A stretch of DNA of 21,229 nucleotides from an uncultured Muribaculaceae bacterium (GTDB taxonomy: Bacteria; Bacteroidota; Bacteroidia; Bacteroidales; Muribaculaceae). Below the pieces are notes generated by a model, which worked only from the letters and a program-made list of their open reading frames with translations, made no database searches and was not told the DNA's origin. The stretch spans positions 1 through 21,229 of the forward strand of contig CAMWUM010000002.1 of NCBI GenBank assembly GCA_947177435.1, written 5' to 3'. Position numbers and translations under genes: made by a program. Below are positions 2,901-21,029 of this stretch, piece after piece. The number at the start of each line of letters is the position of its first letter. Position 1 is the stretch's first letter.

Positions 2901-4346
2901 TTATAATTCGATTTTCTTATAGCGTGGCACAAGGAGTTTCATCACTACCCAGGCCATCAGGTAGCTGACGGCGCACACGCTGAACACGATCATATAAGCC
3001 GCTGGAGTGCCTGAGAATGAGAAGAAATGCACCGCACCGGTATTCTCACCTGCGTAGGTGAAGAACATGCCCGCGCCCTTGTTGATGGCAAACGAACTGA
3101 CGCCGCCGGCCATCGTGCCGATGCCCACGATCGAGGCGACGGTCGACTTGGGGAACATATCGCCGATGGTAGAGTAGAGGTTGGCGCTCCAAGCCTGGTG
3201 TGCGGCTCCCGTCAGGCCGATGATAATGGCGGGCCACCAAACGGAGACGGCGCCGAGCGGCTGGGCGAAGAGGGCAAGAATGGGTATGAACGCGAAGATG
3301 AGCATGGCGCGCATGCGGCCCGCGTAGGGATTCATGCCGCGCTTGTCGACAAATATTTTTGGCAGATAACCGCCGAATATCGATACGACGGTGACGATGA
3401 GGTAAAGCGTGAAAATCAGAGCCTGGCCCATGGCGGAGTATGCTTCGTAGCCATACTCATCCTTGAAATATACGGGTGCCCAGAACAATAGGAACCACCA
3501 CACGCCGTCGGTGAAGAACTTGCCGGCTGCGAAGGCCCACGTCTGGCGATACTTGAAGCAGTGCCAGAAGGGGATTGTCTTTGTCTCCTCCTCTTTTACC
3601 TCTGCGGCCGATTCGCCCTTGTTGTCCTGCTCGATGTAGTCGAGTTCGGCGCGGTTGACATGCTTCGACTTCTGCGGGGCGGTGTAGGCGTAGAGCCACA
3701 GGCCCATCCACACGAAGCCCAGGGCGCCGATAATGACAAACGCTGCTTCCCAGCCCAGGTTCTTGGCCAGAGTGGGGATTGTAAGCGGAGCCACGAGCGC
3801 GCCTACCGAGGCACCGGCATTGAATACCGATGTGGCGAAGGCGCGGTCTTTCTTGGGGAAGTACTGGGCCGTAACCTTAATGGCGGCGGGGAAATTGCCC
3901 GACTCGCCGATGGCCAGCAGAGCGCGGCATCCGAGGAAGAGCCATACGCCCACCGAGGCGATGGCCAGCGCTGCGGCCGATCCCTGCTCGACGCTCTTGA
4001 GGGCGGCGATTGACTCCATGCCGGTGATGTGCATTGCCGCCCAGCCGCATCCGGCGTGGAGGCAAGCGGCTGCCGACCAGAAGAATATGGCCCAGAGGTA
4101 GCCTTTCTTGGCGCCCATCCAGTCGATGAACTTGCCGGCGAAGAGGCTGACGAAGGCGTAGAACAGCGAGAAGAAACCGGTGATGGTGCCGTAGTCGTTG
4201 TGGCCCATGTGGAACTCCGGGGCGATAAAGTCGGCCCAAGTGAGCGAAAGTACCTGGCGGTCAAGGTAGTTGATGGTCGTGGCCAGGAACAGTAGCGAGC
4301 AGATGACCCACCGCCAGTCAGTTTTCTTGGTATTAGTATTTGTCAT
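2901..4346 (-). CDS. MFS transporter, anion:cation symporter family, probably hexuronate (ExuT-like)
   Basis: Integral inner-membrane protein of 481 residues with about 12 hydrophobic segments. The N-terminal INYLDRQVLS motif is characteristic of the ACS family (ExuT, GudP, GarP relatives). A motif-A-like GKFIDWMGAKKGYLW lies between the second and third membrane segments. A long charged central loop (around residues 225-260, rich in Glu and Lys) separates the two six-helix halves. Substrate is inferred from the neighbour: mannonate dehydratase lies 34 nt upstream, so uptake of glucuronate, galacturonate or a related aldonate or uronate is likely, driven by a cation gradient. The start is ATG at 4346, directly after a short run of GTTTA repeats. 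Family is secure; exact substrate is uncertain. Confidence 0.9.
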   Translation of the reverse strand: MTNTNTKKTDWRWVICSLLFLATTINYLDRQVLSLTWADFIAPEFHMGHNDYGTITGFFSLFYAFVSLFAGKFIDWMGAKKGYLWAIFFWSAAACLHAGCGWAAMHITGMESIAALKSVEQGSAAALAIASVGVWLFLGCRALLAIGESGNFPAAIKVTAQYFPKKDRAFATSVFNAGASVGALVAPLTIPTLAKNLGWEAAFVIIGALGFVWMGLWLYAYTAPQKSKHVNRAELDYIEQDNKGESAAEVKEEETKTIPFWHCFKYRQTWAFAAGKFFTDGVWWFLLFWAPVYFKDEYGYEAYSAMGQALIFTLYLIVTVVSIFGGYLPKIFVDKRGMNPYAGRMRAMLIFAFIPILALFAQPLGAVSVWWPAIIIGLTGAAHQAWSANLYSTIGDMFPKSTVASIVGIGTMAGGVSSFAINKGAGMFFTYAGENTGAVHFFSFSGTPAAYMIVFSVCAVSYLMAWVVMKLLVPRYKKIEL

Positions 4347-4380: not shown

Positions 4381-5553
4381 TCAGCAATCGCTCTGCGAAT
4401 GCTGAATGGCGGCCATCATGCCGGAAACCATGCCCAGGGCGAGCATGCGGCCGTGGAATGAATAGCCGGCGTTGTAGCCCATCTTCTCGTCGCCGAGCAT
4501 CAGGGGCGCGTGGTCTACTCGCATAGGCACGCCCGGGCGCTCCTTCTCAAACGTGCGCACTACTTCGATCAGCCTGGGGTCGAGGTGGGATGCCTCCTTG
4601 AAGTCGCCGTTGGGCTTGGGGGCGCAGATGCGGGCGTGCACGAAGTGGGTGCGTCCGGCGTACTTCTTGGCCAGGGCCGGCACGTCGTTGGCGGCGTTGC
4701 TGCTGAGCGAACCGGCACAGAACGTCAGGCCGTTGTGCGGGTTGGGCACGGCGTCGAGAAATGCCTGGATGTCGGCGTCGCACGTGACGATGCGCGGCAG
4801 GCCGAGGATCTGCATGGCGGGGTCGTCGGGGTGGACGCACATGTTGATGTCCCACTCGTCACACACGGGCATGATTGCCCGCAGGAAGTAGGCCATGTTC
4901 TCGCGAAGCTTCTCGGCATCAATGCCTTTGTAGAGATCGAGCAGAGAGCGGAACTTCTCGACGGGGTTGAGGTCTTGCTCCGAGATATTGCCGTTGACAA
5001 ATCCCTGGGTCTTAACGATGATAGTATCGACTAAGCGAGCCTCGGCCTCTGCATCCATTCGCGGGGCCACCTCCTCGGCCACGCGGCGCAGCGTTTCAGC
5101 ATCGTAAGATGCTTCGGCTCCGGGGCGCTTGAGTATGTGGATGTCAAAATAGGCGAACTCGGCCAGGTTGAAGTACAGGTTGGACGTGCCGTCAGGGTTG
5201 GGGTATTCAAGGTCGGTGCGGGCCCAGTCGAGCACGGGCATGAAGTTGTAGCACACGGTCTTGACGCCCGCGCGGCCGAGGTTGGCGAGGCTCTCTTTGT
5301 AATTCTCGATCAGCTGGTCGCGCTCGGGGCCTGCGTACTTGATGGCCTCGCACACAGGCAGGCTCTCGACCACCGACCAGCGTAGGCCGTGGCTCTCGAT
5401 CAGGTCCTTCATCTTGTTTACTTCCTCGGCAGTCCACACCTCGCCGTTGGGGATGTGGTGGAGGGCGGTGACGATGCCTTCGACGCCTATCTGGCGCAGC
5501 ATGTCGAGTGTTATCTTATCGTTGGGGCCAAACCAGCGCCAAGTCTTTTCCAT
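4381..5553 (-). CDS. uxuA: Mannonate dehydratase
   Basis: Cytoplasmic enzyme that dehydrates D-mannonate to 2-keto-3-deoxy-D-gluconate in the glucuronate branch of hexuronate catabolism. At 390 residues it matches the usual UxuA length (about 390-400). Recognisable family stretches are the N-terminal MEKTWRWFGPNDKITLDMLRQ, GVEGIVTALHHIPNGEVW, the metal-site region MCVHPDDPAMQILGLPRIV, TFCAGSLSSN, HFVHARICAPKPNGDF, and the C-terminal RVDHAPLMLGDE followed by NAGYSFHGRMLALG. The His, Cys and Asp residues expected to bind the divalent metal are present. The start is ATG at 5553, 12 nt after the glsB stop. The paired transporter supports a uronate role. Mannonate oxidoreductase (uxuB), uronate isomerase (uxaC) and KDG kinase are not in the window and must be elsewhere if the pathway is complete. 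Confidence 0.97.
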   Translation of the reverse strand: MEKTWRWFGPNDKITLDMLRQIGVEGIVTALHHIPNGEVWTAEEVNKMKDLIESHGLRWSVVESLPVCEAIKYAGPERDQLIENYKESLANLGRAGVKTVCYNFMPVLDWARTDLEYPNPDGTSNLYFNLAEFAYFDIHILKRPGAEASYDAETLRRVAEEVAPRMDAEAEARLVDTIIVKTQGFVNGNISEQDLNPVEKFRSLLDLYKGIDAEKLRENMAYFLRAIMPVCDEWDINMCVHPDDPAMQILGLPRIVTCDADIQAFLDAVPNPHNGLTFCAGSLSSNAANDVPALAKKYAGRTHFVHARICAPKPNGDFKEASHLDPRLIEVVRTFEKERPGVPMRVDHAPLMLGDEKMGYNAGYSFHGRMLALGMVSGMMAAIQHSQSDC

Positions 5554-5565
5554 AACTTTTGATTA

Positions 5566-6495
5566 TTAGTTTTCAGGGTGATAGGTCGATATGTGCCGGC
5601 GCTTTTTCTCTTCGAAGATGTCGTCGATGGCGATGAGGATGCCGGTCTCCTCGACGTCGCCAAACTCGTCGTTGATGGCTGTGCCAAACATCTTCATCGT
5701 GGGCGACAGGCTCATGTAGGCGTTGACCAGCGGCGGGATGCTGATGCCGTGCTTGCGAATCTCGGCATTTAGTGTCTTGTAGTTGTCGCGGAAGTTGTCA
5801 TGCACGAACAGGCGCTCCATCGCCTCGCAGTCGATGCCCGTGTCGAGGGCGCGCTTGGGCGTGACGAGGCTCTCGGTGTCGGGGAAGTGGCGCTGCATGA
5901 AGTACAGGATGAGGTTGCGGCACTCGCGAATGTAGCTTGGGTACATCGTCACCTTGCCAAAGAGGTACTTCACCTGCGGATACACCACAGTCAGCGCGCC
6001 GAGGCCGTCCCAAAGGTTGTCGAGGGCGAATAGCGCCTTGGCTCCGGCCTTCGATGATTGGTACTCCGGTCTTACGAACGAGCGGCCAAGCTCGATGGAG
6101 TGGGGCAGATAGTCGGAAACGAACCGGTCGGAGAAGTCGAAAATGTGGCTGGTGGCGATGCGCGGGTTGCCGTTGGCGTCGAGCCGCACGTCGGAGCCGA
6201 CGATGAAGCGGTAGCCGCCCAGCATCATGCGCGCGTCTGGATCCCAGACCACCAGCTGGCGGCAGGGAGGGTCCATCGTGTCGTAAAGGTCGATGTCACA
6301 CTCCAAGCCCGTGCCGCCTCCGGCCGAGCGGAACGTGAGCTCGCGCAGGCGCCCGAGCTCGCGCATAGCCATCGGCTTTTCGCGGCCGTCGAACACGTAT
6401 ATCAGGTTGCCCCCCTTATTGGAGGGGCGCAGCAGGCAGTCTGCCAGTTCTTGCTCAATCGCTGTTGGATCTATGGGATCGATTAGAGGCTTCAT
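5566..6495 (-). CDS. glsB: GNAT-fold N-acyltransferase, probable glycine N-acyltransferase GlsB
   Basis: A 309-residue protein of the Acetyltransf_5 / OlsB-like branch of the GNAT superfamily (sometimes annotated hemolysin-like). The core runs from about residue 45 to 160: LRELTFRSAGGGTGLECDID, then LVVWDPDARMMLGGYRF, then IELGRSFVRPEYQ and ALFALDNLW. In Bacteroides thetaiotaomicron GlsB N-acylates glycine with a 3-hydroxy fatty acid, and the adjacent GlsA then O-acylates the product to give glycine lipid (and related serine-containing lipids). Here the PlsC-type gene lies 6 nt upstream, which supports the pairing. No membrane segment is obvious, so it is probably cytoplasmic or peripheral. 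An ornithine lipid role (OlsB) is the main alternative; the pair in Bacteroidales favours glycine. Confidence 0.82.
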   Translation of the reverse strand: MKPLIDPIDPTAIEQELADCLLRPSNKGGNLIYVFDGREKPMAMRELGRLRELTFRSAGGGTGLECDIDLYDTMDPPCRQLVVWDPDARMMLGGYRFIVGSDVRLDANGNPRIATSHIFDFSDRFVSDYLPHSIELGRSFVRPEYQSSKAGAKALFALDNLWDGLGALTVVYPQVKYLFGKVTMYPSYIRECRNLILYFMQRHFPDTESLVTPKRALDTGIDCEAMERLFVHDNFRDNYKTLNAEIRKHGISIPPLVNAYMSLSPTMKMFGTAINDEFGDVEETGILIAIDDIFEEKKRRHISTYHPEN

Positions 6496-6501
6496 GGTGG
6501 G

Positions 6502-7332
6502 TCAATTGATCGCGTATGCCATCTCCTTCACCCGCTGGGCCATCTCGCCGGCAGGCGCGCCCTGCAGGCTTTGCCACGGCAGGCGCTCGCCTATGCGTAT
6601 CTCGTAGGTTTTGCCACGGCATCCCAGCATCTCCTGGGGGAGGTATAGCATCTCAATGTTGAACTTGATGCCCAGGCGCTTGCGCCACTGGGCACGCTTA
6701 TAGAATGCCGGCGTGTTCTCGCCGGAAAAGAATAAGGGCACCACATCGCGGTGGTGCTGCAAGGCCTTGGTCACAAACATCTTGTGCCACTCCAAGTCCT
6801 TGATTAGCCCGCCCGGGCCGCGGCGCGACACCAGGCCGGCGGGGAAGATTACGATAGGGTCGGGGCCGTCCATCGCGCGGTTGATGTCCTCGATGCTCTC
6901 GCGGCTCTGGCGGCCGTGCTTGTTGATGGGCAAGAACGCCTCGCGGATAGGCTCCACGGCCATCAGCAGGTCGTTGACTATGAACCGCACGCCCTTGCCG
7001 TAGCGACGGCAGAACTGCGAGATGAGTACGATGCCGTCGAATCCGCCCAGCGGATGGTTGCTCACAAAAATCACCCTCGCATCGGGTCCCGGCTCAGGCA
7101 GCCGCTCGGCGTGCGCCAAGGTAATCTTCGCGTTGAAATCGCGTACCATGGCATCGCAGAAGTCTGCCCCCGTGTTGGGGAAATAGCGGCGCAGCAGCTC
7201 GTTGAGCTCATCCACGCGCACAGTACGGCGGAGCCAGTCAACAGCCCAGCGAGGAACCCAGCCGGCCTTTCGGCCCAACTTGCTCCTCAGCACAGCGTCC
7301 AAATCAATCTGTATAGGCTCGCTCCTTTTCAT
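6502..7332 (-). CDS. glsA: PlsC/LPLAT-family O-acyltransferase, probable glycine lipid O-acyltransferase GlsA
   Basis: A 276-residue lysophospholipid-acyltransferase-like protein. The acyltransferase core has SNHPLGGFDG (91-100), where His93 and Asp99 are five residues apart rather than the four of the classical HX4D box, a spacing I associate with this OlsA/GlsA-like branch. FPAG (163-166) takes the place of the usual FPEG. IRIGERLPW near 245 is another family stretch. GlsA transfers an acyl group to the hydroxyl of N-acyl-3-hydroxy-acyl glycine made by GlsB. The frame opens with GTG at 7341, but the ATG at 7332 (MKRSEPIQIDL) is the better start. It is the first gene of the six-gene run going left. 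PlsC (phosphatidic acid synthesis) is the alternative, made less likely by the linked GNAT gene. Confidence 0.82.
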   Translation of the reverse strand: MKRSEPIQIDLDAVLRSKLGRKAGWVPRWAVDWLRRTVRVDELNELLRRYFPNTGADFCDAMVRDFNAKITLAHAERLPEPGPDARVIFVSNHPLGGFDGIVLISQFCRRYGKGVRFIVNDLLMAVEPIREAFLPINKHGRQSRESIEDINRAMDGPDPIVIFPAGLVSRRGPGGLIKDLEWHKMFVTKALQHHRDVVPLFFSGENTPAFYKRAQWRKRLGIKFNIEMLYLPQEMLGCRGKTYEIRIGERLPWQSLQGAPAGEMAQRVKEMAYAIN

Positions 7333-7361
7333 GTCAAACACTATTTAAGTGCAAATTTATT

Positions 7362-7369
7362 AAATTTCC
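7362..7369 (-). promoter_or_regulatory. Candidate -7 element for the glsA run
   Basis: The minus strand reads TAAATTTG here, matching the Bacteroidales -7 consensus TAnnTTTG. It ends 29 nt before the glsA ATG. A TTTG lies upstream but only 12 nt away, and nothing convincing sits at the usual 19-21 nt, so the -33 element is weak. Confidence 0.5.
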
Positions 7370-7436
7370 GTCAAAATCACGCTAAAAATCAGGAAAAATC
7401 CATCAGTTTTTCTAAAATAACTATAAATCAAAGTGA

Positions 7437-7467
7437 ACGGGGCCGCCCACCGAGTGGACGGCCCCGT
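7437..7467 (-). terminator. GC-rich hairpin after the three-gene envelope module
   Basis: A 9 bp perfect stem (ACGGGGCCG at 7437-7445 pairs with CGGCCCCGT at 7459-7467) continues after one mismatch as CCAC/GTGG around a 3 nt loop. It starts 28 nt beyond the stop codon at 7495 and precedes the glsA promoter region. The following bases on the minus strand are only moderately T-rich, so it may be an atypical terminator or an mRNA 3'-end stabiliser. It could also act on read-through from the other strand. Confidence 0.72.
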
Positions 7468-7494
7468 TTAGGGGTTGAATGATGGATTGTGCGA

Positions 7495-9810
7495 TTAGAA
7501 CTTGTAGGATGCGCCTACCATTACCTTGCCGGCGGCTACGAAGTGCTCGGTGTTGGGGAGCAGCAGACATACGCGAGGCTGCCATGCGGTGATACGCGGT
7601 TCGATGAGGAGATCGATATTCTTCGATACATCCCACTTGAACTGCACGCCGCCCTGAGCCACGAGGCCGATTGAGCTGTAGGGGTAGTTGCTCCAGCCGA
7701 AGCCAATGCCAACGAGAGCGTTGATGTGGAACTTGCGGGCGGGATTATGCTCCCAGAGGTTGACTACGTCGAGCACGTAGTCGGCGTGGATATTGCCGAT
7801 GCCGACCTGCGGGACGTTGGCGATCTTCGGGAAGTCATAGCCGAAACCGGCCTGAAGAGCGGATGTGCTTGAGAACCGATGTCCGTAGACCATGTCAAAG
7901 CCACCGCAGAGATAATCTACGCCTGGGAGTCTGCCGCCCTTGCTGAGAATGCCGGGACCGCCGGTGACTGTCACATAGTTTGCAAATGCCGGGCTATTAA
8001 CGCGGATAGAATCGTTGTCTGCTGAGCCGTACATAAGATCGGTCTTATTCTTGCGCTTGTCAAACTTGTAGCTTATGCCGACCTGCATGCGGATGCTCTT
8101 GTCGAGCTTGCGGGAGTAACCCTTGGCGTAAGTGGGCTTGATCTGGGGCTCGATGAAAAGGTCAACACGGTTCGACACGTTAAAGCGAGCCTGGAGGCCA
8201 CCTTGGAAGCCCGCCACGGGTTGGAACTTGCCGTTGTAGCGTGCGGCACCGCCGTGTATACCGCCGATGAGAAGAACGTCAAACACACGATCGCGGTTGT
8301 ATCCGGCGAACATTGAGCCGAGGCTCAGCATATAGTCGGCATTGATCGTCACGTCGGCAAATTTGGGCAGGGTGCGGAAATATTCAGCACTGCCAGAGAT
8401 ACGCCATGCAGAAACGGGGGAGAACCATCGGCCGATACCGACCCATGCGGTGAGATTGTCGGTCCACGATGAGTCGCGGTAGATTGAGCCTGCGGCTGCG
8501 CTCAGGAAGAATTTCCTGGAGGCCAGGTAGTCTTCGGTAGCGGCGGCGAAATCGTAGTTGCTAAAGTTGTCCTTGAATCGGCCAATGCGGTACTGGAAAC
8601 CGATGTTAAACGAACCGATGATATTGCGACTGCGTCCCGAGTTGGCGAACTCGCGATTGAATAACAATGCCTTGGGCTCTATTACCATCTGGAGGTTGGA
8701 AGTAAGGTCGATTACGCCCTGAATGCCCACGGCTGCGCCGAGATGGAGCGATGAGGATGTGCGGCTTGTGACTCCGAGTGCCGGACCGAGGATGATATTG
8801 GTATTGAAGCGGCGGTCGGGATTGAAGCCGTTAAACACTGAGTTTACATTGAGCAAGTAATCAATTTCGGCAGTTGCAAACTTGGCGTGGCCCTGGCCCT
8901 TGAGTCCGAATAATCCGGCTGTCCCCATTAAGCGCCAGCCAGAAATGGTCGAAGCCCATGTGCCGATATACATCGACGCGTTGGCGCCAGTGATATCTTT
9001 GATTGCCTTGAAGTTCGGATCAGCAAACAAGTTGCCGCCGAAGCCGAAGCCATAGAAGGTGTTGTCGAGCGCATACTGGTTGTCGAGTTTGGCGCGGAAT
9101 CGGTTAGCGATCGGCGAGAGGCTATAGCCCATACCCACCATCAGTGATGCCTCCAAGTCGTACTTCTGCCAATTGGTGCGGGTGTTGACACCGTCAGAGA
9201 AAAGGCTGGCGCGGGGTTCAACATAGATGTATGTTGACGGGTTGAAATTGTAACGGAACTGCAGTCCGAGATGACCGCCAAATACATTGGCTGCCGAAGG
9301 CTTGACGCGTCGTTGATACTCCAATCCGGCGACGCCCACGATGTCGAACTTGCGATACGGATTATAGCCGTGCGCGAGTGACGACAGGTTCATCAGGTAA
9401 TCTAAGGTCGCGCCTACAAACATGTTTTTCGGAGCGTTCAGTTCTTTACGTCCTCCAAGATTCACGCCGAGTTTCAGGCCATGTACCGGCGTCAGCCAGT
9501 CGCCGACAGAGATGCCTAATCGGCCGCCAATGTCAGGACGGCCAATCATTTGGCCATAAGAGCGGTGAGTGAGTGTCGGGGCCGCCTCGATGTTGATGAA
9601 CAGATGGTCACCGAAACGCTTGTTGTCGAATTTCACGTTAGGCAGAGGACGCTGAAGACGATAGTCGAGAGCATTGAAGCCCTGGAGAACTGTTCCGCCA
9701 CTGGTGTTGGTCTGCGCAGAGACAGACAAGGGGGCAACTGCAGAGAAAAGTACTGCTAATGCAACACTGCAGAATGTCGTGATTTTGCGTATATGTGTCA
9801 TTGCAATCAT
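7495..9810 (-). CDS. Outer-membrane protein of four tandem beta-barrel-like repeats
   Basis: I do not recognise a named family. A Sec signal peptide (KITTFCSVALAVLFSAVAP, probable cleavage at VSA-Q) is followed by about 740 residues built from four diverged copies of a ~160-residue beta-rich unit. Numbering from an in-frame ATG at 9864, the units lie at about 87-250, 270-428, 450-601 and 628-789. Each holds a DYLxNLxSL-GYNPxRxFD-like turn (at 155, 335, 510, 695) and, about 60 residues later, an IEPR-like motif (215, 395, 571, 755). Units 3 and 4 both end in SYKF, the latter being the protein's C-terminus, as expected for BAM-inserted strands. The linkers are hydrophilic. The start is uncertain: ATGs at 9864, 9840, 9810 and 9801 are all in frame, and 9810 avoids overlap with the upstream gene. 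It is last in the three-gene module. The substrate or role is unknown. Confidence 0.85.
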   Translation of the reverse strand: MIAMTHIRKITTFCSVALAVLFSAVAPLSVSAQTNTSGGTVLQGFNALDYRLQRPLPNVKFDNKRFGDHLFINIEAAPTLTHRSYGQMIGRPDIGGRLGISVGDWLTPVHGLKLGVNLGGRKELNAPKNMFVGATLDYLMNLSSLAHGYNPYRKFDIVGVAGLEYQRRVKPSAANVFGGHLGLQFRYNFNPSTYIYVEPRASLFSDGVNTRTNWQKYDLEASLMVGMGYSLSPIANRFRAKLDNQYALDNTFYGFGFGGNLFADPNFKAIKDITGANASMYIGTWASTISGWRLMGTAGLFGLKGQGHAKFATAEIDYLLNVNSVFNGFNPDRRFNTNIILGPALGVTSRTSSSLHLGAAVGIQGVIDLTSNLQMVIEPKALLFNREFANSGRSRNIIGSFNIGFQYRIGRFKDNFSNYDFAAATEDYLASRKFFLSAAAGSIYRDSSWTDNLTAWVGIGRWFSPVSAWRISGSAEYFRTLPKFADVTINADYMLSLGSMFAGYNRDRVFDVLLIGGIHGGAARYNGKFQPVAGFQGGLQARFNVSNRVDLFIEPQIKPTYAKGYSRKLDKSIRMQVGISYKFDKRKNKTDLMYGSADNDSIRVNSPAFANYVTVTGGPGILSKGGRLPGVDYLCGGFDMVYGHRFSSTSALQAGFGYDFPKIANVPQVGIGNIHADYVLDVVNLWEHNPARKFHINALVGIGFGWSNYPYSSIGLVAQGGVQFKWDVSKNIDLLIEPRITAWQPRVCLLLPNTEHFVAAGKVMVGASYKF
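7498..9606 (-). repeat. Four diverged protein-level repeat units inside the large outer-membrane protein
   Basis: Approximate DNA spans are 9606-9115, 9057-8581, 8517-8062 and 7983-7498. The period is 175-185 codons, judged from the spacing of the DYL-type motif (180, 175, 185) and of the IEPR-type motif (180, 176, 184). Similarity is clear at the protein level around these anchors and weak elsewhere, so the duplications are old rather than recent. Confidence 0.8.
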
Positions 9811-9826
9811 TGAGGTCGGGTGGGGA

Positions 9827-11875
9827 TTATTCTTTTTCATCTTCTTGCTGATTGTCGCCATCAAGAAGTTCCATTACGTCGCCGTCGACTTTGGCTATCT
9901 CTCTGAGTTCGGGATCAAGTCGCAAAGCTTTCTCGATGTGGTCTATTGCCTCCATGTAGTAGTCCATGCGGTTGGCGCAAATAGCCTTGACGTATTCTTC
10001 TTTAGCCGAATTGCCAAGCTGTTTGGATTTCTCCCAAGCTTCGTCATTGGCTTTAACGGCCAGCAGCAGGAGCACTTCGTTGAATCGTGACTCATTAGCA
10101 AGTTCCTGCATTACTTCGAGATATTTGCCGTTTAGGGCTTTGGCGTAGACAGTCGTCTTGTGGTAGCGCGGATCGTTGGGCAGAAGCTCAGCCAGCGAGT
10201 CAGCCTCTAAGAAGTTGCTTTCGTGCAGGTATGCGGCAGCCAGGGTGGCGCGGGCTTCGTTGGGCACTCGGTTGCCGGCTTTTTGGACCAGAGGAGCGAG
10301 GTACTCTGACGTCGGCTCGCCTTTCTGGATTAGCAAAGCCGTGAGGTCGTTTGCGGCAACGAGGAAGTTGGGGTGGATTTCAAGCGCGCGGCGCATGATT
10401 GTCTCTTTTTCTTCCGGTGTTTCGGCGAGGGTGTATAGGCGCCAGAATTCGTAGCGGTTCAGCTTTCGGCTATCGGTGCGGTAGAGCTCGGCGATTTCTT
10501 CGTCAGTGAGGTAGCGGTATCGCGACGACACATACTGGTAGCTCACGCGACGAAGCTTAGGCAGATATATCTCCTTGATTTTGTCATAGCCGGGCAGGCG
10601 TGAGATGGCGTATGACTGGCGCAGGTTTTGGTTAGGGTAACGGTCTATGATATTTTCAACCGCTTCAGCTTCGGCTATGAGGCTATCGGCGCGCAGCAGG
10701 TCGACTACTGCCATCCAACTCTCGACGCTGGCCTCCGACTCAAAGGTGGCGTTGCGGCGCGTCGACTCGTCGAGGTTCTCATATATAATATCCATGGCCG
10801 ACTTCAGACGGTCGGTGGCCAATTTCAAGTTATGCTCGTATTGGCCCTCGGGCGATGCCGTGCCAAATATCGCGAAACTTTTCAGAGTAGAGTTGGGATC
10901 TTGTTCGATTTCGTGAATCTGGGCCAGCAGGCTATCCATCTCAGCGCGGTTGTCGCCAAGGTTGAGGTCGAGTTTAGTCTGGTTGACTTTGAACGTCAGA
11001 TTGACATCGCCCTGAGTGTCGCGCAACTGCAAGTCAGGCGTAGGCAGAAAGTCATTGTCAGTTACAAATAAGCCGGAGGCTTTCAGGTCGAGGAATCGGA
11101 GGGGGTTTATGACACCGCGGGCAATGGTGGTGGTGTCGCCATACATTATATGGTTATAGTCCTCGAGCGACAGCATTACGTCACAGCGGAAGTCATCCTT
11201 GGGATTCTCGACGTAGATGGAATCGTTGATGGAGATTATGTTGTCTTTTCTTCCCGATGTCTCTTTAATCTGTACGTATTCTGAAAGCGGATCCTTGCTG
11301 CGGTCGAAATCATACATGCGCTCCTGCGTATCGTTATAACGCCATCCGTCATAGACTATTGGCTGCATGTAATTGATTTCCTTCCTGGTCACGTTGTAGA
11401 CCATCGGTTGTATGATCAGGCGGGCGCTGGTGTTGAACATCTCGTGGGGCATCCTCACTCGAGTCTTGATGTGGAGATAGTTGCCTACGACATCCATATC
11501 CGTGGGCTCGGCCAGGATGACATTGTTGCGGCGCTTTGCCTGTACGACGAGCTCAGTCAGGGCCAGGGCCTCACGTTCGAGCTCGACGTCAATGTTAAGA
11601 CGCCCGTTGACGGGAATTGTCTGGTTCTGGTGGCCGAGAATGCAGAATTCGATGACGTCGGCATCGTCGACTGTTACCAGATATTTGCCTTCATCGTTTG
11701 TAGCGCCGAGCAGGTGGTGGTTTTTGGAGTCGAAGATGCTGACACCTTGTATCGGCTCGCCGTTATCTTGAGATGTCACCACGCCGTGTACGTTGATTTT
11801 GCGAGCATCAGCACCCGATACTGCCGCTGCAATAAATACAAGCGTCAGCAGAATATGCTTGATAGTTTTTTCCAT
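9827..11875 (-). CDS. CarboxypepD_reg-like / OmpA-like / TPR-like envelope protein
   Basis: Secreted or outer-membrane-associated protein of 682 residues with no named family that I recognise. A signal peptide (1-24, ending at ADA-R) is followed by a carboxypeptidase regulatory-like domain (about 26-105: VHGVVTSQDNGEPIQGVSIF, then GATNDEGKYLVTV), the fold also found at the N-terminus of SusC-type proteins. Residues 120-300 are beta-rich and unassigned. An OmpA-C-like stretch follows (about 330-365) with GTASPEGQYEHN at 338-349 and a conserved Arg at 356. The usual GHTD aspartate is Ser here, as in the GYASPEG variant common in Bacteroidota. The C-terminal half (about 470-675) is helical and TPR-like. 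The tail is very acidic. It lies 8 nt after the DUF3575 gene and 16 nt before the four-repeat barrel. Anchoring the barrels to peptidoglycan or scaffolding them is an inference. Confidence 0.85.
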   Translation of the reverse strand: MEKTIKHILLTLVFIAAAVSGADARKINVHGVVTSQDNGEPIQGVSIFDSKNHHLLGATNDEGKYLVTVDDADVIEFCILGHQNQTIPVNGRLNIDVELEREALALTELVVQAKRRNNVILAEPTDMDVVGNYLHIKTRVRMPHEMFNTSARLIIQPMVYNVTRKEINYMQPIVYDGWRYNDTQERMYDFDRSKDPLSEYVQIKETSGRKDNIISINDSIYVENPKDDFRCDVMLSLEDYNHIMYGDTTTIARGVINPLRFLDLKASGLFVTDNDFLPTPDLQLRDTQGDVNLTFKVNQTKLDLNLGDNRAEMDSLLAQIHEIEQDPNSTLKSFAIFGTASPEGQYEHNLKLATDRLKSAMDIIYENLDESTRRNATFESEASVESWMAVVDLLRADSLIAEAEAVENIIDRYPNQNLRQSYAISRLPGYDKIKEIYLPKLRRVSYQYVSSRYRYLTDEEIAELYRTDSRKLNRYEFWRLYTLAETPEEKETIMRRALEIHPNFLVAANDLTALLIQKGEPTSEYLAPLVQKAGNRVPNEARATLAAAYLHESNFLEADSLAELLPNDPRYHKTTVYAKALNGKYLEVMQELANESRFNEVLLLLAVKANDEAWEKSKQLGNSAKEEYVKAICANRMDYYMEAIDHIEKALRLDPELREIAKVDGDVMELLDGDNQQEDEKE

Positions 11876-11883
11876 CTGCAGAC

Positions 11884-12432
11884 TTATTTAAAGATATAAG
11901 TAAATGATACGCCGATGTTCATCGGGATAACCATAAGCTTGTTCACGTTAGGGGAGGATGGCTTGCGCTCGGACTGCGAATAGTCGAAGTAGCGGGCATA
12001 ACCCAGGCCGGCGCCGGCAGTGAATTCGACATTCCAATGGCGGCCTAATACGAGAGCGTAGCCATAGGTGAGGCCGCCGCCGAATATGTCGCCTTCCTTC
12101 CTGGTGTCTTTGTGCACCAGGTCGAAGCTTGAGGCCAGTAAGGCAACGCCCGCATAGTGCTTGGCCATGGGGCGGTTGAACCAGTACCTCAGCTCAGGCA
12201 TGAAACGAAAACTATTGAAGCGTGTGTCACGAACTGTTACCTTGATTGGATTACCGGCCAATCCGAATCCTAATGTGAATCGTTGGCTAAGACGAGCCTC
12301 AAGCGTGAAGTTCGGCGTAAGCGTGGCCCAATCGAGAGTGTTTGTCCTTAAAGCTACGCGCTGGCCTAACGCACTTTGGCAGGCAATCACAAGCATTCCA
12401 ACAAATAGTACTGTTTGAAGAAGTTTTTTCAT
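11884..12432 (-). CDS. DUF3575-family small outer-membrane beta-barrel protein
   Basis: A 182-residue protein with a cleavable signal peptide (LLQTVLFVGMLVIACQSALG, cleavage near residues 22-24) followed by RVALRTNTLDWATLTPNFTL, the N-terminal hallmark of DUF3575 proteins. Alternating strands rich in aromatics and glycine run to the end, which closes with VSFTYIFK. The size fits an 8-stranded barrel. In Bacteroidales DUF3575 genes often sit next to OmpA-like or DUF3868 genes in fimbria-type clusters; here the neighbour is an OmpA-like/TPR protein and no fimbrillin is seen. First gene of the module, preceded by a strong promoter match. The biochemical function of DUF3575 is not known to me. 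Confidence 0.85.
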   Translation of the reverse strand: MKKLLQTVLFVGMLVIACQSALGQRVALRTNTLDWATLTPNFTLEARLSQRFTLGFGLAGNPIKVTVRDTRFNSFRFMPELRYWFNRPMAKHYAGVALLASSFDLVHKDTRKEGDIFGGGLTYGYALVLGRHWNVEFTAGAGLGYARYFDYSQSERKPSSPNVNKLMVIPMNIGVSFTYIFK

Positions 12433-12532
12433 CGCAGAAATACGTTGTTTAGCAGATGTAATGGGTGTGATGTATGTATGACATTTTTTGTGAGATAATC
12501 AAGATAGAGACATTTTTCTCAAAAAAGACCTG

Positions 12533-12564
12533 CAAAATTACAAAAAAAAACAATAGCGACCAAA
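12533..12564 (-). promoter_or_regulatory. Promoter of the three-gene envelope module
   Basis: On the minus strand a -33 TTTG (12564-12561) is followed after 20 nt by TAATTTTG (12540-12533), a full match to the Bacteroidales consensus. It lies about 100 nt before the DUF3575 start. The spacer contains nine consecutive T on the minus strand (A9 at 12542-12550), so its length could vary by slippage. The remaining leader to 12433 holds no clear structure. Confidence 0.75.
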
Positions 12565-12604
12565 TAATGTTGTACGGATTTTCTGCGGAGCCTTGTCAAG
12601 GAGG

Positions 12605-13855
12605 TTATTCGAAGCGGAGCGTGGAGGCGGGACTTACGCTGGCGGCCAGGCGTGAGGGGAGGACGAGGATGAGCCAGGCTGCGGCGGCGGTGGCGAGGTT
12701 GAGGAGGATGATATCGGCGGGGGTGATGCTGACGGGGACGGATTTGAGGTAGTACATGTCGGGGTCGAGGCGGAGGAATTGCCACCGCTGCTGAGCCAGG
12801 AGCAGGCCGAGGCCAAGGACGTTGCCGATGATTATGCCCAAGCCGACGGTCTTCATGGCCATGGTGACGAAGATGAGGCGTATCTGCCGGCGGGTGGCGC
12901 CGAGCGAACGGAGCAGGCCGATGGCGGGGATGCGGTCGAGGATGAGGATGAACATGCTGGAAATGAGCGTGAATCCGGCCACGCACGCCATGAGGATGAA
13001 GATGACCACGACGTTGGTGTCGAGCAGGTCGAGCCAGTTGAAGAAGGCGGCGCCGGTGTGCCTTACGTTGTCGACGGGGTAGAGGTCGTCGAGTTGGCCG
13101 TACTGGTATAGGTCGATCAGGCGGTCTTGCAGGCGGGCAGCTTGCTCGGGGATGGCTTGGCGGTCGGCGATGTTGATATTGATGGCCGAGCCAGAGAGGG
13201 AGTCAATGTGGGCCACGCGCTGGAGGGTGGCGAGGGGTGCGAAGGCGATGGTCTTGTCGTAGTCTGAAAATCCGGTCTCGTATATTGCGGCGATTTCGAA
13301 CCGACGGGTGCGCACGGCCTCGTCGGCGAAGAAGCAGGCGTTGACCTTATCGCCGAGTTCGAGTCCGAGGCTGAGGGCGGTGGAGCGTGAGATGGCGATT
13401 TTGTTGGCATCGTCGGGCGAGGAGAAGTCGGGGAGTTGGCCCTCAATGATGCTTTGGCGCTCAAAGGCGTAGTCGTGGTTCGTGTCATAGCCCACGAAGT
13501 AGATGCCGGCAAAGTCGGAGTCAGTCTTCAGCAGGCCAGGTTGGTTGAGTTTCAGGCTGATCTCTGTGGCGGGGACGCTCTCGATGATATGAGCGCGAAT
13601 GTCGGGGTCGAGGCGCACGTAGGCTGCCGACGAGTCTGCTCCGGGGTCGTAAGCGGGCAGTATGGAGATATTGCCGTCGAAGCCCATGATGCGGTCGGTG
13701 ATTTGCTCTTTAAATCCGCGAGCCACGCCGAGGGTGCATAGCATGATGATGATGGCCAGGGCTACGCCTGTCACGGCAATGGCCACGCCCGTGGCGTTGG
13801 CCTTGCTTTTGCCGGTGAGCTTGAGCCGCCCAGATAGCCAAAGGATAAACCTCAT
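12605..13855 (-). CDS. ABC transporter permease, LolC/LolE-like (FtsX-type)
   Basis: Inner-membrane permease of about 416 residues with the MacB-PCD/FtsX layout of LolC/LolE. One membrane segment lies near the N-terminus (ATGVAIAVTGVALAIIIMLC). A ~210-residue periplasmic domain follows. Three C-terminal membrane segments begin at VVVIFILMACVAG, MKTVGLGIIIGNVLG and ILLNLATAAAAWLIL. The terminal PASTLRFE resembles the LolE ending. LolCDE extracts lipoproteins from the inner membrane for delivery to the outer membrane. No ATPase (LolD) is encoded nearby, so it would use one encoded elsewhere. The frame also opens at TTG 13885, overlapping the previous stop as TTGA, but the ATG at 13855 gives the family-like N-terminus MRFILWLSGRL. 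Last gene of run A. Lipoprotein specificity is inferred. Confidence 0.85.
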   Translation of the reverse strand: MRFILWLSGRLKLTGKSKANATGVAIAVTGVALAIIIMLCTLGVARGFKEQITDRIMGFDGNISILPAYDPGADSSAAYVRLDPDIRAHIIESVPATEISLKLNQPGLLKTDSDFAGIYFVGYDTNHDYAFERQSIIEGQLPDFSSPDDANKIAISRSTALSLGLELGDKVNACFFADEAVRTRRFEIAAIYETGFSDYDKTIAFAPLATLQRVAHIDSLSGSAININIADRQAIPEQAARLQDRLIDLYQYGQLDDLYPVDNVRHTGAAFFNWLDLLDTNVVVIFILMACVAGFTLISSMFILILDRIPAIGLLRSLGATRRQIRLIFVTMAMKTVGLGIIIGNVLGLGLLLAQQRWQFLRLDPDMYYLKSVPVSITPADIILLNLATAAAAWLILVLPSRLAASVSPASTLRFE

Positions 13856-13881
13856 AAGGAATAGGATTTTTTTGACAATTG

Positions 13882-14748
13882 TCAAATAGACAAATTGTCA
13901 ATTTTTGAGAAGTTGCGTCGGGCGATGATGATGCCGAGGACGGTGAGGGCTACGGAGACGCATACGATGATGATGTCGGAGAGGCTGACGGTGGTGCCGA
14001 GCGCGTCGAGGGCGGACTCTTCCTCGCCATTGGCGAACCACTGGGCCACGACGTAGATCGCGTTGTTGAATGCGTGCAGGATTATGGGCGCCCACAGGCT
14101 TCGGCTCCACCAGAGCATGTAGCCGAAGAAGGCGCCGAGCAGCATGCGGGGTATCAGGCCGTAAAATTGCAGGTGCATCAGGCTGAACACGGCAGCGGTA
14201 ATCCAGATGGCGGTGTGGGTGTTAAGGCCGCCGGTGCTGAGGATGCGCTGTAGGGCGCCGCGGAAGAGAATTTCCTCACTCAAGCCGGCGAGGATGGCCA
14301 CTATCAGCATGCCCATAACAAGGCTGCCGACGGTGTGGCCTGCGTAGAGCGTCTCGATAGTGCCCGCGGCGGTGTCTTCCATCTGGCGTAGCACTTGCTC
14401 GATAGGCTCGGGCAGGGGTATGCTCTCGTTGAGGTGGATTATCAGGTTCATGGCCGGGATGGCTGCCACCATCACGCAGAGGCCCATGATGAGGCCGGGC
14501 CAGAATGGCCGGCGGTCAAGCAGCATCAGTTCTGCCGGTTGGCGCGTGATGATTACGGCGGTGAGCACGGCCGGGGCGATGAACATGAACAGGTCTTGCA
14601 TGACCATCAGGATGCGGAGGCCTGGCACGCTCTCCGGTCCGGCGATTTTCTGTATGATAAAGGCTATGACGGCCACGAGCACGTAGCCGATGATGAACGT
14701 GAACAGAAGCATGAGCAGCCTCTTGGGCAGGGTGACGGTGAAACGCAT
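13882..14748 (-). CDS. CPBP-family intramembrane metalloprotease (CAAX protease-like)
   Basis: A 288-residue polytopic membrane protein with all three CPBP motifs. SEEILFRG (157-164) gives the Glu-Glu and Arg of EExxxR. FSLMH (188-192) is the FxxxH motif. HAFNN (225-229) is the HxxxN motif. These are the residues of the glutamate/histidine intramembrane protease fold of Rce1 relatives. Hydrophobic segments flank and contain the motifs. Bacterial members act in bacteriocin self-immunity, in processing of secreted peptides, or have unknown roles; no bacteriocin gene is seen here. It starts 2 nt after the trmN6 stop, indicating co-transcription. The specific substrate is unknown. Confidence 0.92.
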   Translation of the reverse strand: MRFTVTLPKRLLMLLFTFIIGYVLVAVIAFIIQKIAGPESVPGLRILMVMQDLFMFIAPAVLTAVIITRQPAELMLLDRRPFWPGLIMGLCVMVAAIPAMNLIIHLNESIPLPEPIEQVLRQMEDTAAGTIETLYAGHTVGSLVMGMLIVAILAGLSEEILFRGALQRILSTGGLNTHTAIWITAAVFSLMHLQFYGLIPRMLLGAFFGYMLWWSRSLWAPIILHAFNNAIYVVAQWFANGEEESALDALGTTVSLSDIIIVCVSVALTVLGIIIARRNFSKIDNLSI

Positions 14749-14750
14749 AT

Positions 14751-15437
14751 TTAGAGTTTTAAGTAGAAGTCTTTGACGAGGGATATGTATTCGGGCGAGC
14801 CGATGAGCAATTCTGATTCTATCTGCGGGCCGTCGAGGCGCGAGAATTGCCAGAGGATGCGCGTTGCGGGCTTGCCGGCACGGGTGGATACGCGGCAGAT
14901 GCTGCGCAGCCTCATTCTCAGCATTTCGGCCTCGAACACGAGTTGCTGCCAGCCGTCGGCCGGGGTGACCATGGCCAGCGTGCCGTCGGTGGAGAGGTGG
15001 GAGGAGGCGAAGCGCAAGGCGCCGACGGCGTCGAAGCCTGCGCCGTGGCGGGCGGTGGCTCGCTGAGCATCGGGAGAGACGAGTGTGCTGTCGAAATATG
15101 GGGGATTGCAGATTACAGCGTCGGGGTCACGTGTCGGTTGATAGGCCATTGCGTCAGCGCACACAACCTCAATGCGCGGGCCGAACGGAGAGGCGTCGGC
15201 ATTGGCGCGGGCGTCGGCGCAGGCCGCCGGGTCAATCTCAACGGCTATGATAGAGGCTTGCGGGCAGCGCTGGGCGGCCATGAGCGAAAGCAGTCCGCTG
15301 CCAGCGCCGAGGTCGAGGATGTGGGCAGGACCCGAGGGCAGATCAGCCCAGGCGCCGAGCAGGACGCTATCGGTGCCGACCTTCATGCCGCAATGCTCGT
15401 CGGCCACAGAGAACTGCTTGAAATCAAATCGGCCCAT
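14751..15437 (-). CDS. trmN6: tRNA1(Val) (adenine(37)-N6)-methyltransferase
   Basis: Cytoplasmic SAM-dependent methyltransferase (TrmN6/YfiC family, 228 residues) that methylates N6 of A37 next to the anticodon of tRNA-Val. The N-terminus FDFKQFSVADEHCGMKVGTD followed by LLGAW is the family signature. Motif I DLGAGSG (42-48) binds SAM, and NPPYF (111-115) is the catalytic motif of N6-adenine methyltransferases. Its ATG shares one base with the preceding PAP2 stop (TGATG). It looks like a housekeeping passenger in an envelope operon. Substrate is inferred from family membership. Confidence 0.94.
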   Translation of the reverse strand: MGRFDFKQFSVADEHCGMKVGTDSVLLGAWADLPSGPAHILDLGAGSGLLSLMAAQRCPQASIIAVEIDPAACADARANADASPFGPRIEVVCADAMAYQPTRDPDAVICNPPYFDSTLVSPDAQRATARHGAGFDAVGALRFASSHLSTDGTLAMVTPADGWQQLVFEAEMLRMRLRSICRVSTRAGKPATRILWQFSRLDGPQIESELLIGSPEYISLVKDFYLKL

Positions 15438-16441
15438 CAGAACAGCGCACGCGTTAAGAATCCGACGTATATGGTTGACACTCCGCGGCTGCAGTCGCCC
15501 AGGCGAAGCGTAGAAAATTCGTATCCGGCTTCAGCTCCGACCGACAGTTTGCGCGTGAGCATGATGGTGCCCTGTGCTCCGGCATTGAGTACCAGTGCGT
15601 TGCGGCCGAAGTCGATGTCCTCGCATTTTATGTTGCGTCGGTATCCGCCCATGGCGTAGGCCGACAGGCCGTAAGGGCCGTTGTGCCAGTGGCCTGTGCC
15701 ACCGGCCATCACGGATGCCGAAGTGAGCGGTGCGCGGCGGTCGCCGTCCTTGACCATGCCGCTCAGCAACTGCGCGCCGGCGCACAGGCCGTAGGTGGAG
15801 CCGAGCGGGAAGGTGGCCCGCAGGTTGGAGGCCAGGGCCGAGCCGAGCCGATAGGCGCCAAATCGGCGCTGCAACGGCATTGATATGCAGGTGGATATGG
15901 TCATTCCTCCGGCAAACGGATTGGGATTGCGGTACCAATAGGGGAAGGACAGGTCTTTGCCAAAGATCCAGTTGGCGATGGTGCCCGACAGCATGTTGAT
16001 GCCCACGCCGATGCAGGCACCTGCCATGACATCGCTGGGCCAGTGGCGGGCGGCCATCACTCGCTGGAAGCCTACGCCGTTGGCCACAGCGTGGGCGCCG
16101 TAGAGCCACCAGGGCGAGTACTGGCCCATGAAGTTGCCAATCGTATAGCTTAGGCTGAAAGCTGTAGAGGCGTGGCGCGACGGGAAGGAGTTGAAGTCGC
16201 TATGGTCGGGCCTTTCCTCTTTGATCCAAGCTTTTATGCCTGCGCCGAGGCTGTAATTGATGACCTGGCCAACGCCCACGGAGGTGCACTGGCGAGGCCA
16301 GTCGACGCTTCGCAGGAATGATATGATCGAGCGGGGCAGCGAGTCGGGCTCCTCGGTGGAGAGCGAGTCGGCGTACTGCGCGCGGCCCGAAAAGGCGGCA
16401 CACATCAGCAGGGGCAATATGAGGATCAGGCGCTTAATCAT
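15437..16441 (-). CDS. PAP2-family phosphatase with C-terminal beta-barrel-like region
   Basis: A 334-residue exported protein with a signal peptide (1-21, ending GRAQ). The PAP2 phosphatase triad is complete: KAWIKEERP (70-78, KX6RP), FPSRH (86-90, Arg in place of the usual Gly of PSGH), and RVMAARHWPSD (127-137, the R-x5-H-x3-D motif, preceded by Gln rather than Ser). PAP2 enzymes dephosphorylate lipid phosphates such as phosphatidic acid, undecaprenyl pyrophosphate or lipid A phosphates. After about residue 185 the sequence changes to alternating Gly/aromatic-rich strands ending in TRALF, like an outer-membrane barrel. If real, the enzyme is tethered to the outer membrane. It overlaps the GH3 gene by 8 nt. 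The natural substrate is unknown. Confidence 0.88.
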   Translation of the reverse strand: MIKRLILILPLLMCAAFSGRAQYADSLSTEEPDSLPRSIISFLRSVDWPRQCTSVGVGQVINYSLGAGIKAWIKEERPDHSDFNSFPSRHASTAFSLSYTIGNFMGQYSPWWLYGAHAVANGVGFQRVMAARHWPSDVMAGACIGVGINMLSGTIANWIFGKDLSFPYWYRNPNPFAGGMTISTCISMPLQRRFGAYRLGSALASNLRATFPLGSTYGLCAGAQLLSGMVKDGDRRAPLTSASVMAGGTGHWHNGPYGLSAYAMGGYRRNIKCEDIDFGRNALVLNAGAQGTIMLTRKLSVGAEAGYEFSTLRLGDCSRGVSTIYVGFLTRALF

Positions 16442-19400: not shown

Positions 19401-19463
19401 GGCCAGCGCCAACAGCGCACACTTCAATATATTGCTCATAATCAATTCGTTTTTAGTCATCAT
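16434..19463 (-). CDS. GH3 beta-N-acetylhexosaminidase fused to a beta-lactamase-fold serine hydrolase
   Basis: An exported protein of 1009 residues. The signal segment is ILKCALLALAICLF. The GH3 domain (about 60-385) is NagZ-like: KHFPGHG (235-241), then the Asp246-Ser-His248 dyad expected to serve as acid/base, and the probable nucleophile Asp321 in FTDALGM. A GH3 C-terminal-like domain covers about 415-580. A class C beta-lactamase/PBP-like domain (about 595-1005) has SVSK (Ser653, Lys656) and HTG (956-958). At the second active-site box it reads YSC (799-801) rather than YSN. The likely role is trimming of peptidoglycan GlcNAc residues outside the cytoplasm, with the second domain perhaps a D-alanyl esterase or peptidase. 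The start is ATG at 19463, overlapping the nucleotidase stop as ATGA. An ATG at 19439 is an alternative giving a cleaner signal peptide. Confidence 0.92.
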   Translation of the reverse strand: MMTKNELIMSNILKCALLALAICLFHADCVNGRASGAQASTPSPAQPSGISAIARSPQAQAWADSVYNSLTERQRVAQLFVSHVNPDAGQAGKANIKFAVDAGVGGLLYTKGSLQSYAEMNNYAQSIARVPLMITLDGEWGISMRVPGTPQFPRNMALGAITDDALLYDYGMEMARECQALGIQVNFAPDVDVNSNPDNPVIGTRSFGEDPARVGSLGTAYSLGLEDGGVLSVAKHFPGHGDTDTDSHKALPTVHHSQQTLDEVDLVPFRQYIAAGMGGVMVGHLSVPALDASGRPASLSRPITTGLLREQMGFDGLIFTDALGMKGADGYGNTAVEAFKAGADVLLSPRALKTDIDAILKAVASGQIKAADVEARVKKILAYKYALGLADLDKVNYPAVKDEINAPSAEAVNRALCDAMITAVHNRGGILPLADLAHNKIAIVSIGAPKGNEFEEMCLRYAPAKTYDGLSLSSDDLAELHKCNTVIAAVFKDNQASKAALATLKDMPGLVTVMLLNPYKMAEFKSLLGNEQALVAAYEDLPFARQSAAKALFGGIDVTGRFPVNVEGVAKMGDGVDIAKTRLGFAMPSAVGLDDAIVGRIDSIVNSAMASGAFPGAQVLVVKDGLVIIDGAYGHNTNGGKKVTNSTLYDLASVSKTVGTLPGVMKAYDLQMFDLDAPASAHIPGLNVPGKSDITPRMLLYHETGMPPSLNMFTTMMDPDTYDGKITVGKRDAKHTIKVEDGVWGHSTARMRSDITAKSQGPGFEHQAAEGIYVGQGAYDTIMQRIYDIEPRATRAYRYSCLNFCLLMDLEQRLTGQPHQQWVTDSVWAPIGAYTFCYRPYEKYGHDRIAYTEQDNYLRRQHLNGHVHDELAAFSGGVQGNAGVFGTAYDIAKLCQTWLNGGSYGDAEVFSPETNALFTTEKSPNSRRGLGFDKPDTTNPDNSPTIDECPGSVYGHTGYTGTAYWVDPDNQLVFIFLCNRVDPTRNNRAFRQSSWRGDIMRMIYHSLDD

Positions 19464-20998: not shown

Positions 20999-21029
20999 CA
21001 AAAGTAGCGCTTTCAACTGAAATTTCAAA
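20999..21029 (-). promoter_or_regulatory. Promoter of the nucleotidase-GH3-PAP2-trmN6-CPBP-permease run
   Basis: The minus strand has TTTG at 21029-21026, a spacer of 19 nt, then TACTTTTG at 21006-20999. Both elements and the spacing match the Bacteroidales consensus. It would give a short leader of about 25 nt before the ATG at 20968. Confidence 0.78.

Follow-up and report, generated by a model that had tools for sequence, protein, structure and literature searches.

The 21,229-nucleotide stretch of DNA analysed here, referred to as the window, comes from an uncultured Muribaculaceae bacterium (assembly GCA_947177435.1, contig CAMWUM010000002.1, positions 1 to 21,229 of the forward strand) and carries on its reverse strand a block of three genes, designated A, B and C, which encode predicted outer-envelope proteins. 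Sequence homology places A and B with the DUF3575–DUF3868/OmpA gene pair found in type V-like fimbrial loci of the Bacteroidales, while C consists of mutually homologous units, variable in number, with a resemblance to the OmpA barrel. Such a pair commonly stands at the head of Bacteroidales fimbrial loci; in the window the barrel-like chain C occupies the position of the fimbrial genes. The source genome of the window is 2.0 Mb in size and 79% complete, with the window as its contig C2; individual loci examined are given L-numbers. The three genes are:

11884..12432, reverse strand: gene A, 182 residues, DUF3575 small barrel (PF12099, E 1.4e-46), signal peptide by eye
9827..11875, reverse strand: gene B, 682 residues, with CarbopepD_reg, DUF3868-like, OmpA-like and TPR-like parts, signal peptide without a lipobox (by eye)
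7495..9810, reverse strand: gene C, 771 residues, putative chain of four OmpA-type barrel units, ATG at 9810 with the frame open from 9864

A and B are separated by 8 nt, B lies 16 nt from the ATG of C, and all three N-termini resemble signal peptides as judged by eye. The preliminary description, made from the letters of the stretch, had given the same spacings and signal peptides, and its family descriptions (a DUF3575 barrel, a CarboxypepD_reg/OmpA-like/TPR-like protein and a four-unit barrel-like protein) hold.

Conservation of the three-gene block

Gene order was compared in 81 loci, namely the window and 80 loci of named genomes, which were the best 80 of 88 confirmed with the B alignment and contain two B. 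fragilis strains twice each. The order A-B-C on one strand is found in 73 of the 81, and two (L102, L107) have the order B-C-A, giving 75 loci with the three genes side by side; four more (L092, L108, L112, L125) run into a contig end but keep the one neighbour that is left in its usual position. Because the loci had been selected by B alone, this adjacency is far beyond chance. Far from being rarely adjacent in relatives, the genes thus form a conserved block, as the preliminary description had supposed in calling them a self-contained three-gene outer-envelope unit. The starts of open reading frames (ORFs) around 11 of the 80 named loci look by eye like assorted housekeeping genes, so that the block seems to stand alone as a self-contained unit in varied gene neighbourhoods. 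Pairwise distances of A follow those of B (Spearman 0.80), as do those of C (0.78 for the first unit and 0.61 for the last), all without correction for shared species history.

A near full-length B is present in 8 of 198 genomes of the order; in the family 16 of 149 genomes have a B match at E 1e-50, and in the genus 5 of 49 genomes have B, the source genome being included each time and one of the five genus members having B split over two contigs. The 14 full-length family loci that were fetched all have A-B-C, and one more (L197) has A with a shorter B; as these 14 share their contigs with named loci, they do not count as independent evidence, and several loci from the 198-genome order sample likewise overlap the named ones. 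In the class, B (E 1e-60) was found in 3 of 395 genomes, all of the same order, with at most two first-look candidates scored per genome, which tests spread beyond the order weakly. The B proteins of four loci titled as Bacteroides, Clostridium, Lachnoclostridium and Alistipes metagenome-assembled genomes (L048, L057, L059 and L104, respectively) fall among Muribaculaceae rows, and these titles are probably wrong.

Relationship of A and B to fimbrial loci

Protein A is assigned to DUF3575 by the Pfam match given above, and a search of the PDB with it returned a single match at E 0.079. Protein B is composite, and the following parts were located:

11543..11791, reverse strand: CarbopepD_reg_2 domain of B, residues 29–111 (31.0 bits, cut-off 32.2)
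10175..11560, reverse strand: part of B homologous to DUF3868/OmpA/TPR proteins, residues 106–567 (hhalign against fimbrial-locus proteins)
10721..11008, reverse strand: OmpA-like stretch of B, about residues 290–385, motif GTASPEG, with Ser at the Asp place and Arg356 kept

In a profile comparison with PDB entries, the first domain of B matches the N-terminal one of SusC homologs (E 3e-14). Over 437 columns, the profile of B matches that of the fimbrial-locus DUF3868/OmpA/TPR proteins with an hhalign probability of 99.9% and E 3.1e-32. In Pfam the TPR match of B is weak and neither an OmpA match nor a PF12984 match is found at E 0.1, while direct matches of B to OmpA structures are weak (E 0.017–0.042); the OmpA-like label rests on the homology to the fimbrial-locus proteins, direct evidence for it being weak. 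In an alignment with canonical OmpA domains, Ser341 of B stands where canonical Bacteroidales OmpA has Asp, and neither Ser341 nor Arg356 varies among the 21 B proteins aligned. Of 95 B proteins, 44 fit a narrow motif pattern, and each of these has Ser and Arg; the remaining 51 fell outside the pattern. In PF00691-type domains it is the Asp and the Arg that contact peptidoglycan. Despite the retained Arg, the Ser in place of Asp makes ordinary peptidoglycan binding by B doubtful, and with it the "peptidoglycan-linked scaffold" of the preliminary description; rather than binding peptidoglycan in the usual manner, the domain may take another ligand, for example the barrels.

Weaker B matches led to loci in which genes for DUF3575, DUF3868/OmpA/TPR, Fimbrillin_C and Mfa2 anchor proteins stand in a row (L036 and L043); the same row is found with its first two genes fused in L045 and, up to Fimbrillin_C, in L047. 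A census of DUF3575 genes gave 103 places in 36 of the 198 genomes of the order, from which 48 were taken, mostly better-scoring ones, A-B-C loci being left out. Among 41 third genes, 19 match Fimbrillin_C, 7 P_gingi_FimA and 5 Mfa2, where one protein may match several families, and 26 of 34 fourth genes match Mfa2; other third genes are unrelated, such as those for a tRNA synthetase and a fumarase. Five of the 41 follow DUF3575 with no recognised B-type gene between (L214, L219, L233, L234, L239) and three follow an A-B fusion, and the count leaves out L203, L236 and L241 (contig ends), L038, L221 and L222 (no A called) and L231 (short ORFs). A-type and B-type parts share a single ORF in 5 of the 48 census loci. 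On contig C12 of the source genome itself, an OmpA-like::DUF3575 fusion (L007:5175-6503) heads a fimbrial locus in which a DUF5119 gene and two genes of Mfa_like_1 type come next.

A clade of nine rows in the B tree (support 100) has the arrangement A-B-C', in which C' consists of one C unit plus one DUF3575 domain (E 2.7e-30 in L032, which is on the same contig as L114). In all three loci of this clade that were scanned (L114, L121, L124) the next gene is DUF5119, followed in L114 and L121 by Mfa_like_1. Since A-B-C' is followed by DUF5119 and fimbrillin-like genes, the clade links the fimbrial form and the window form and, on gene order and domain content, is a bridge between them. The earlier remark that nothing in the module points to fimbriae therefore does not stand: A-B resembles the DUF3575–DUF3868 pair often standing at the head of Bacteroidales fimbrial loci, and a sister clade keeps fimbrial genes. 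As to whether the locus is of an already described type, two of its three genes come from a known one, so that the answer is half affirmative; A and B belong to the fimbrial type and C does not.

Neither a fimbrillin (Fimbrillin_C, FimA, Mfa_like_1) nor an Mfa2/FimB anchor (PF08842) was found by Pfam in A, B or C, and the five Pfam-scanned neighbours (12605-13885, 6502-7341, 5566-6495, 4381-5553 and 2901-4346) belong to non-fimbrial families, without PF08842. For the genes in 13882-20968, covered by an NCBIfam scan only, the matches are non-fimbrial, those listed under curated cut-offs; the window genes 96-2120 and 2117-2932 were outside the fimbrial-gene scan. In B. fragilis Q1F2 (L126:115-2950) and B. 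faecalis (L109:449-3331) a second DUF3575–DUF3868 pair lies about 4 kb from A-B-C on the opposite strand; its third gene in L126 is of the clostripain family (Peptidase_C11), and this pair may serve yet another partner.

Protein C as a chain of OmpA-like units

The units of C, located with a unit profile, are:

9115..9621, reverse strand: C unit 1
8578..9075, reverse strand: C unit 2
8056..8526, reverse strand: C unit 3
7498..7977, reverse strand: C unit 4, ending in ASYKF

Protein C has no Pfam family match at all and its profile has no match in the PDB. The four units are mutually homologous (hhalign 99.5–99.8%) and are separated by spacers of 13, 17 and 26 residues, compared with about 11–32 residues in relatives; the preliminary description of the large protein as a set of barrel-like units thus finds its counterpart in four homologous OmpA-barrel-like units. 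By the unit profile, relatives have 2, 3, 4, 5, 6 or 8 units. Among 69 deduplicated loci, three have two units, eight have three, 26 have four, 16 have five, five have six and two have eight, whereas the remaining nine are of the C' form with a single unit; these counts take in chains cut by contig ends, and the unit profile reads the single barrel of the OmpA protein L198 as two matches. In B. reticulotermitis (L071:10004-12813) C is divided over two ORFs of 116 and 819 residues, possibly by a frameshift or a sequencing error.

At E <=1e-5 the C profile has matches in 37 of the 198 genomes of the order. Apart from true C proteins, most of the matched rows are open frames some 400 residues long, with E between 1e-5 and 1e-18. 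In the three OmpA-type proteins that were read (L198, L199, L200) the match to C falls within residues 49–245; a C-terminal PF00691 domain is present in L198 (from the source genome), L199 and L118:3381-4586, and the C-terminal OmpA motif of L200 was recognised by eye. The C units, on this evidence, resemble the N-terminal barrel of Bacteroidales OmpA. The consensus of 289 units from 65 proteins terminates in AGLTYRF. At the three places of this end motif the last units of chains have G, Y and F in 80, 63 and 76% of cases, respectively, and the motif is blurred in internal units.

Comparison with known systems

The Porphyromonas gingivalis fim cluster comprises fimX, pgmA and fimA–E, with PgmA in the outer membrane, according to PMC3436787. 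From gene order and size only, FimX would correspond to the A type (DUF3575) and PgmA to the B type (DUF3868). Type V pilus loci of the Bacteroidales, such as fimX-pgmA-fimA-fimB of P. gingivalis, share with the window the order of DUF3575 followed by DUF3868/OmpA/TPR upstream of surface genes; they differ in that the window has C where the fimbrillin and the Mfa2 anchor stand, and in the extra N-terminal CarboxypepD_reg domain of the window B. The OmpA-like::DUF3575 fusion of the source genome (L007) joins the same two kinds of domain as A and B, but as a single protein in a fimbrial locus without a barrel chain.

Bacteroidales OmpA, an eight-stranded barrel with a PF00691 domain, is likened to the module by the resemblance of the C units to its N-terminal barrel and by the OmpA-like domain of B. 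It differs in that the module distributes barrel-like and periplasmic parts over different proteins, has the barrel-like unit in several copies and, in B, has Ser for Asp. Among multi-barrel outer-membrane proteins, eight-stranded barrels and lineage-specific amplification reportedly prevail. C is like these proteins in having several predicted barrel domains in one chain, but its chain belongs to a conserved block of three genes, the other two being a pair of fimbrial type. The class was proposed by Solan et al. 2021 (PNAS), as cited in PMC8592465; literature searches for tandem or multiple barrels in one chain yielded PMC8592465 only, on a related point.

PorE of type IX secretion has the order TPR-WD40-CRD-OmpA and, like B, combines OmpA-like and TPR parts with one of CarboxypepD_reg type in a single periplasmic protein. 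B differs in the order of its parts and in having no WD40 match (Pfam, E up to 0.1), the PorE-like WD40 part being the one type IX secretion part looked for. With SusC/SusD systems the module shares only the CarboxypepD_reg N-terminal domain of SusC (positions 1–85 of 981).

Possible function and alternative explanations

We propose that the module may be an outer-membrane scaffold derived from a fimbrial locus that clusters barrels, in effect a base without a pilus, and regard this reading as evenly balanced between right and wrong. B would be a soluble periplasmic protein docking beneath the barrels through its OmpA-like/DUF3868 part, so that the OmpA barrel and its periplasmic domain would in effect be supplied in trans, and its TPR part would hold further partners. 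Since B has no visible membrane anchor, A and C probably keep it at the outer membrane. In place of a pilus base with an Mfa2-anchored fibre, at least four barrels would be gathered into a patch, and gain or loss of C units would set its size. A more specific version, put forward tentatively and at somewhat less than an even chance, is a trans-split OmpA machine in which B, a hub derived from the pilus base, organises the C chain of 2–8 barrels together with A into one large patch sized by the repeat number, the pilus having been lost and its base turned into a membrane-organising device in its own right.

Several points weigh against the scaffold. Closure of each C unit as a separate barrel, and assembly of A, B and C into a complex, are what we infer from the sequences. 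An amphipathic scan of the C unit consensus gave nine stretches with two overlaps, one between the first two and one between two others; this is compatible with eight strands, a soft count that falls to seven blocks if all overlaps are merged. The idea that the C units are DUF3575 barrels was rejected, hhalign detecting no relationship (at most 10%), although C' of the L114-type clade has DUF3575 as its second domain. Two B. fragilis loci (L116, L117) have A and B without C, and some census DUF3575 genes have no adjacent fimbrial gene (e.g. L044, where a tRNA-synthetase gene follows). A further point is the Ser of B where OmpA has Asp, which speaks against ordinary peptidoglycan binding. Finally, fimX and pgmA of P. 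gingivalis are dispensable for FimA polymerisation and are reported to affect transcription of fimA (PMC3436787), so a regulatory role fits as well.

A-B-C could instead serve as an additional base for fimbriae that have their subunit genes at other sites of the genome, with C adding barrels to the pilus base; in favour are the frequency of the A-B pair in fimbrial loci, the DUF5119 and Mfa_like_1 genes directly after A-B-C' in L114 and L121, and the fimbrial locus on another contig of the source genome. We consider this unlikely, given that the fimbrial locus of the source genome has an OmpA-like::DUF3575 protein of its own, that the 11 window-type loci have mostly housekeeping-like neighbours with no fimbrillin recognised (by eye on ORF starts, with no Pfam scan), and that FimX and PgmA are not needed for FimA polymerisation. 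A regulatory function, in which the module would be an envelope sensor controlling surface-protein genes by analogy with what is reported for fimX and pgmA, draws on the lowered fimA transcription after mutation of these genes (work cited in PMC3436787) and on BT4233-36 of B. thetaiotaomicron (DUF3868, DUF3575 and a response regulator), which stand together among iron-responsive genes in PMC10434189. No regulator gene was noticed in the conserved block, whose neighbours were not scanned systematically for one, and an inner-membrane part is not apparent in the sequences of A, B and C by eye; this is the least probable of the alternatives, at a slim chance.

C could also close into a single barrel of very large size, acting as a pore or translocon, with A and B as partners and B feeding or gating it. 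Giant barrels do exist in the Bacteroidota, as in SprA of the type IX secretion system; eight strands per unit would make each unit add a multiple of eight, and the TPR-like part of B could receive cargo. Such a barrel is nevertheless distinctly improbable, as the units individually match the barrel region of OmpA proteins, the units are set apart by the spacers listed above in the window and elsewhere, the last unit ends in the G..Y.F signature that persists in blurred form in internal units, the sister clade combines one C unit with one DUF3575 barrel, and the number of units ranges from 2 to 8.

Base composition and origin

The G+C content of the module is 0.530 versus 0.608 in its flanks, in agreement with the preliminary description, which had placed it below both neighbouring runs. 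At third codon positions (GC3), A, B and C have 0.59–0.67 versus 0.72–0.83 in the other window genes, and the four fimbrial genes of the source genome have 0.67–0.76. Over 65 measurable loci, the window included, the module is below its flanks in just 17 and not below in 48, and is on average 1.9 points higher; the dip is therefore not intrinsic to the module, and the earlier suggestion that it merely reflects the composition of surface proteins is ruled out. As a counterpoint, the source genome has other genes of low G+C, for example the oxidase-like gene L007:13233-13955 (0.456) beside the fimbrial locus.

In the B tree, built by a quick method, the window falls in a clade of 29 rows, mainly Muribaculaceae and Barnesiella, with support 100; its end branch is 0.54 and its exact place has only 85–94 support. 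This placement shows no outside donor. Both flanking genes are near-universal in the genus (45 and 46 of 49 genomes), but simple insertion of the module between them was rejected: in the three genomes compared (G297, G351 and G359) the two genes are on separate contigs or some 11 kb from each other. The low G+C together with the presence of B in 5 of the 49 genus genomes suggests horizontal gain or repeated loss.

Signals and neighbouring genes

Two putative expression signals flank the block:

12533..12564, reverse strand: promoter-like site TTTG-N20-TAATTTTG, match to the Bacteroidota consensus
7436..7468, reverse strand: hairpin downstream of C with a 15-bp stem, probable terminator (-31.3 kcal/mol, z -5.7)

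TTTG-N20-TAATTTTG is the promoter consensus of the Bacteroidota, and it has 3 matches in the window versus 0.11 expected from shuffles. The consensus promoter and strong hairpin reported in the preliminary description were thus both recovered; the hairpin is strong by itself but has no clean T run, and the number of terminator-like sites is at chance level (6 found, 5.5 expected). Promoters of the sigma-70 type are likewise at chance level in 7300-12700 (4 found, 4.4 expected). The two further exact promoter-like matches are at 20999-21029 on the reverse strand, immediately upstream of a 5'-nucleotidase-like gene (19460-20968), and at 19088-19121 on the forward strand. The 1009-residue protein encoded at 16434-19463 joins a beta-N-acetylhexosaminidase part of GH3 type to a serine hydrolase part of PBP4B/beta-lactamase-like type (by NCBIfam matches under curated cut-offs).

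Implications

DUF3575 and DUF3868 are common in the Bacteroidales and, as far as the searchable text of the literature goes, nearly unmentioned, being table entries where they are named. The tie to fimbriae, together with a widespread fimbria-free variant bearing a barrel chain, offers a testable frame for these families as parts of an outer-membrane platform with an exchangeable third component. The C chain, with its 2–8 units, provides a natural series for the insertion of several barrels per chain and for the effect of barrel clustering on the outer membrane of gut Bacteroidales.

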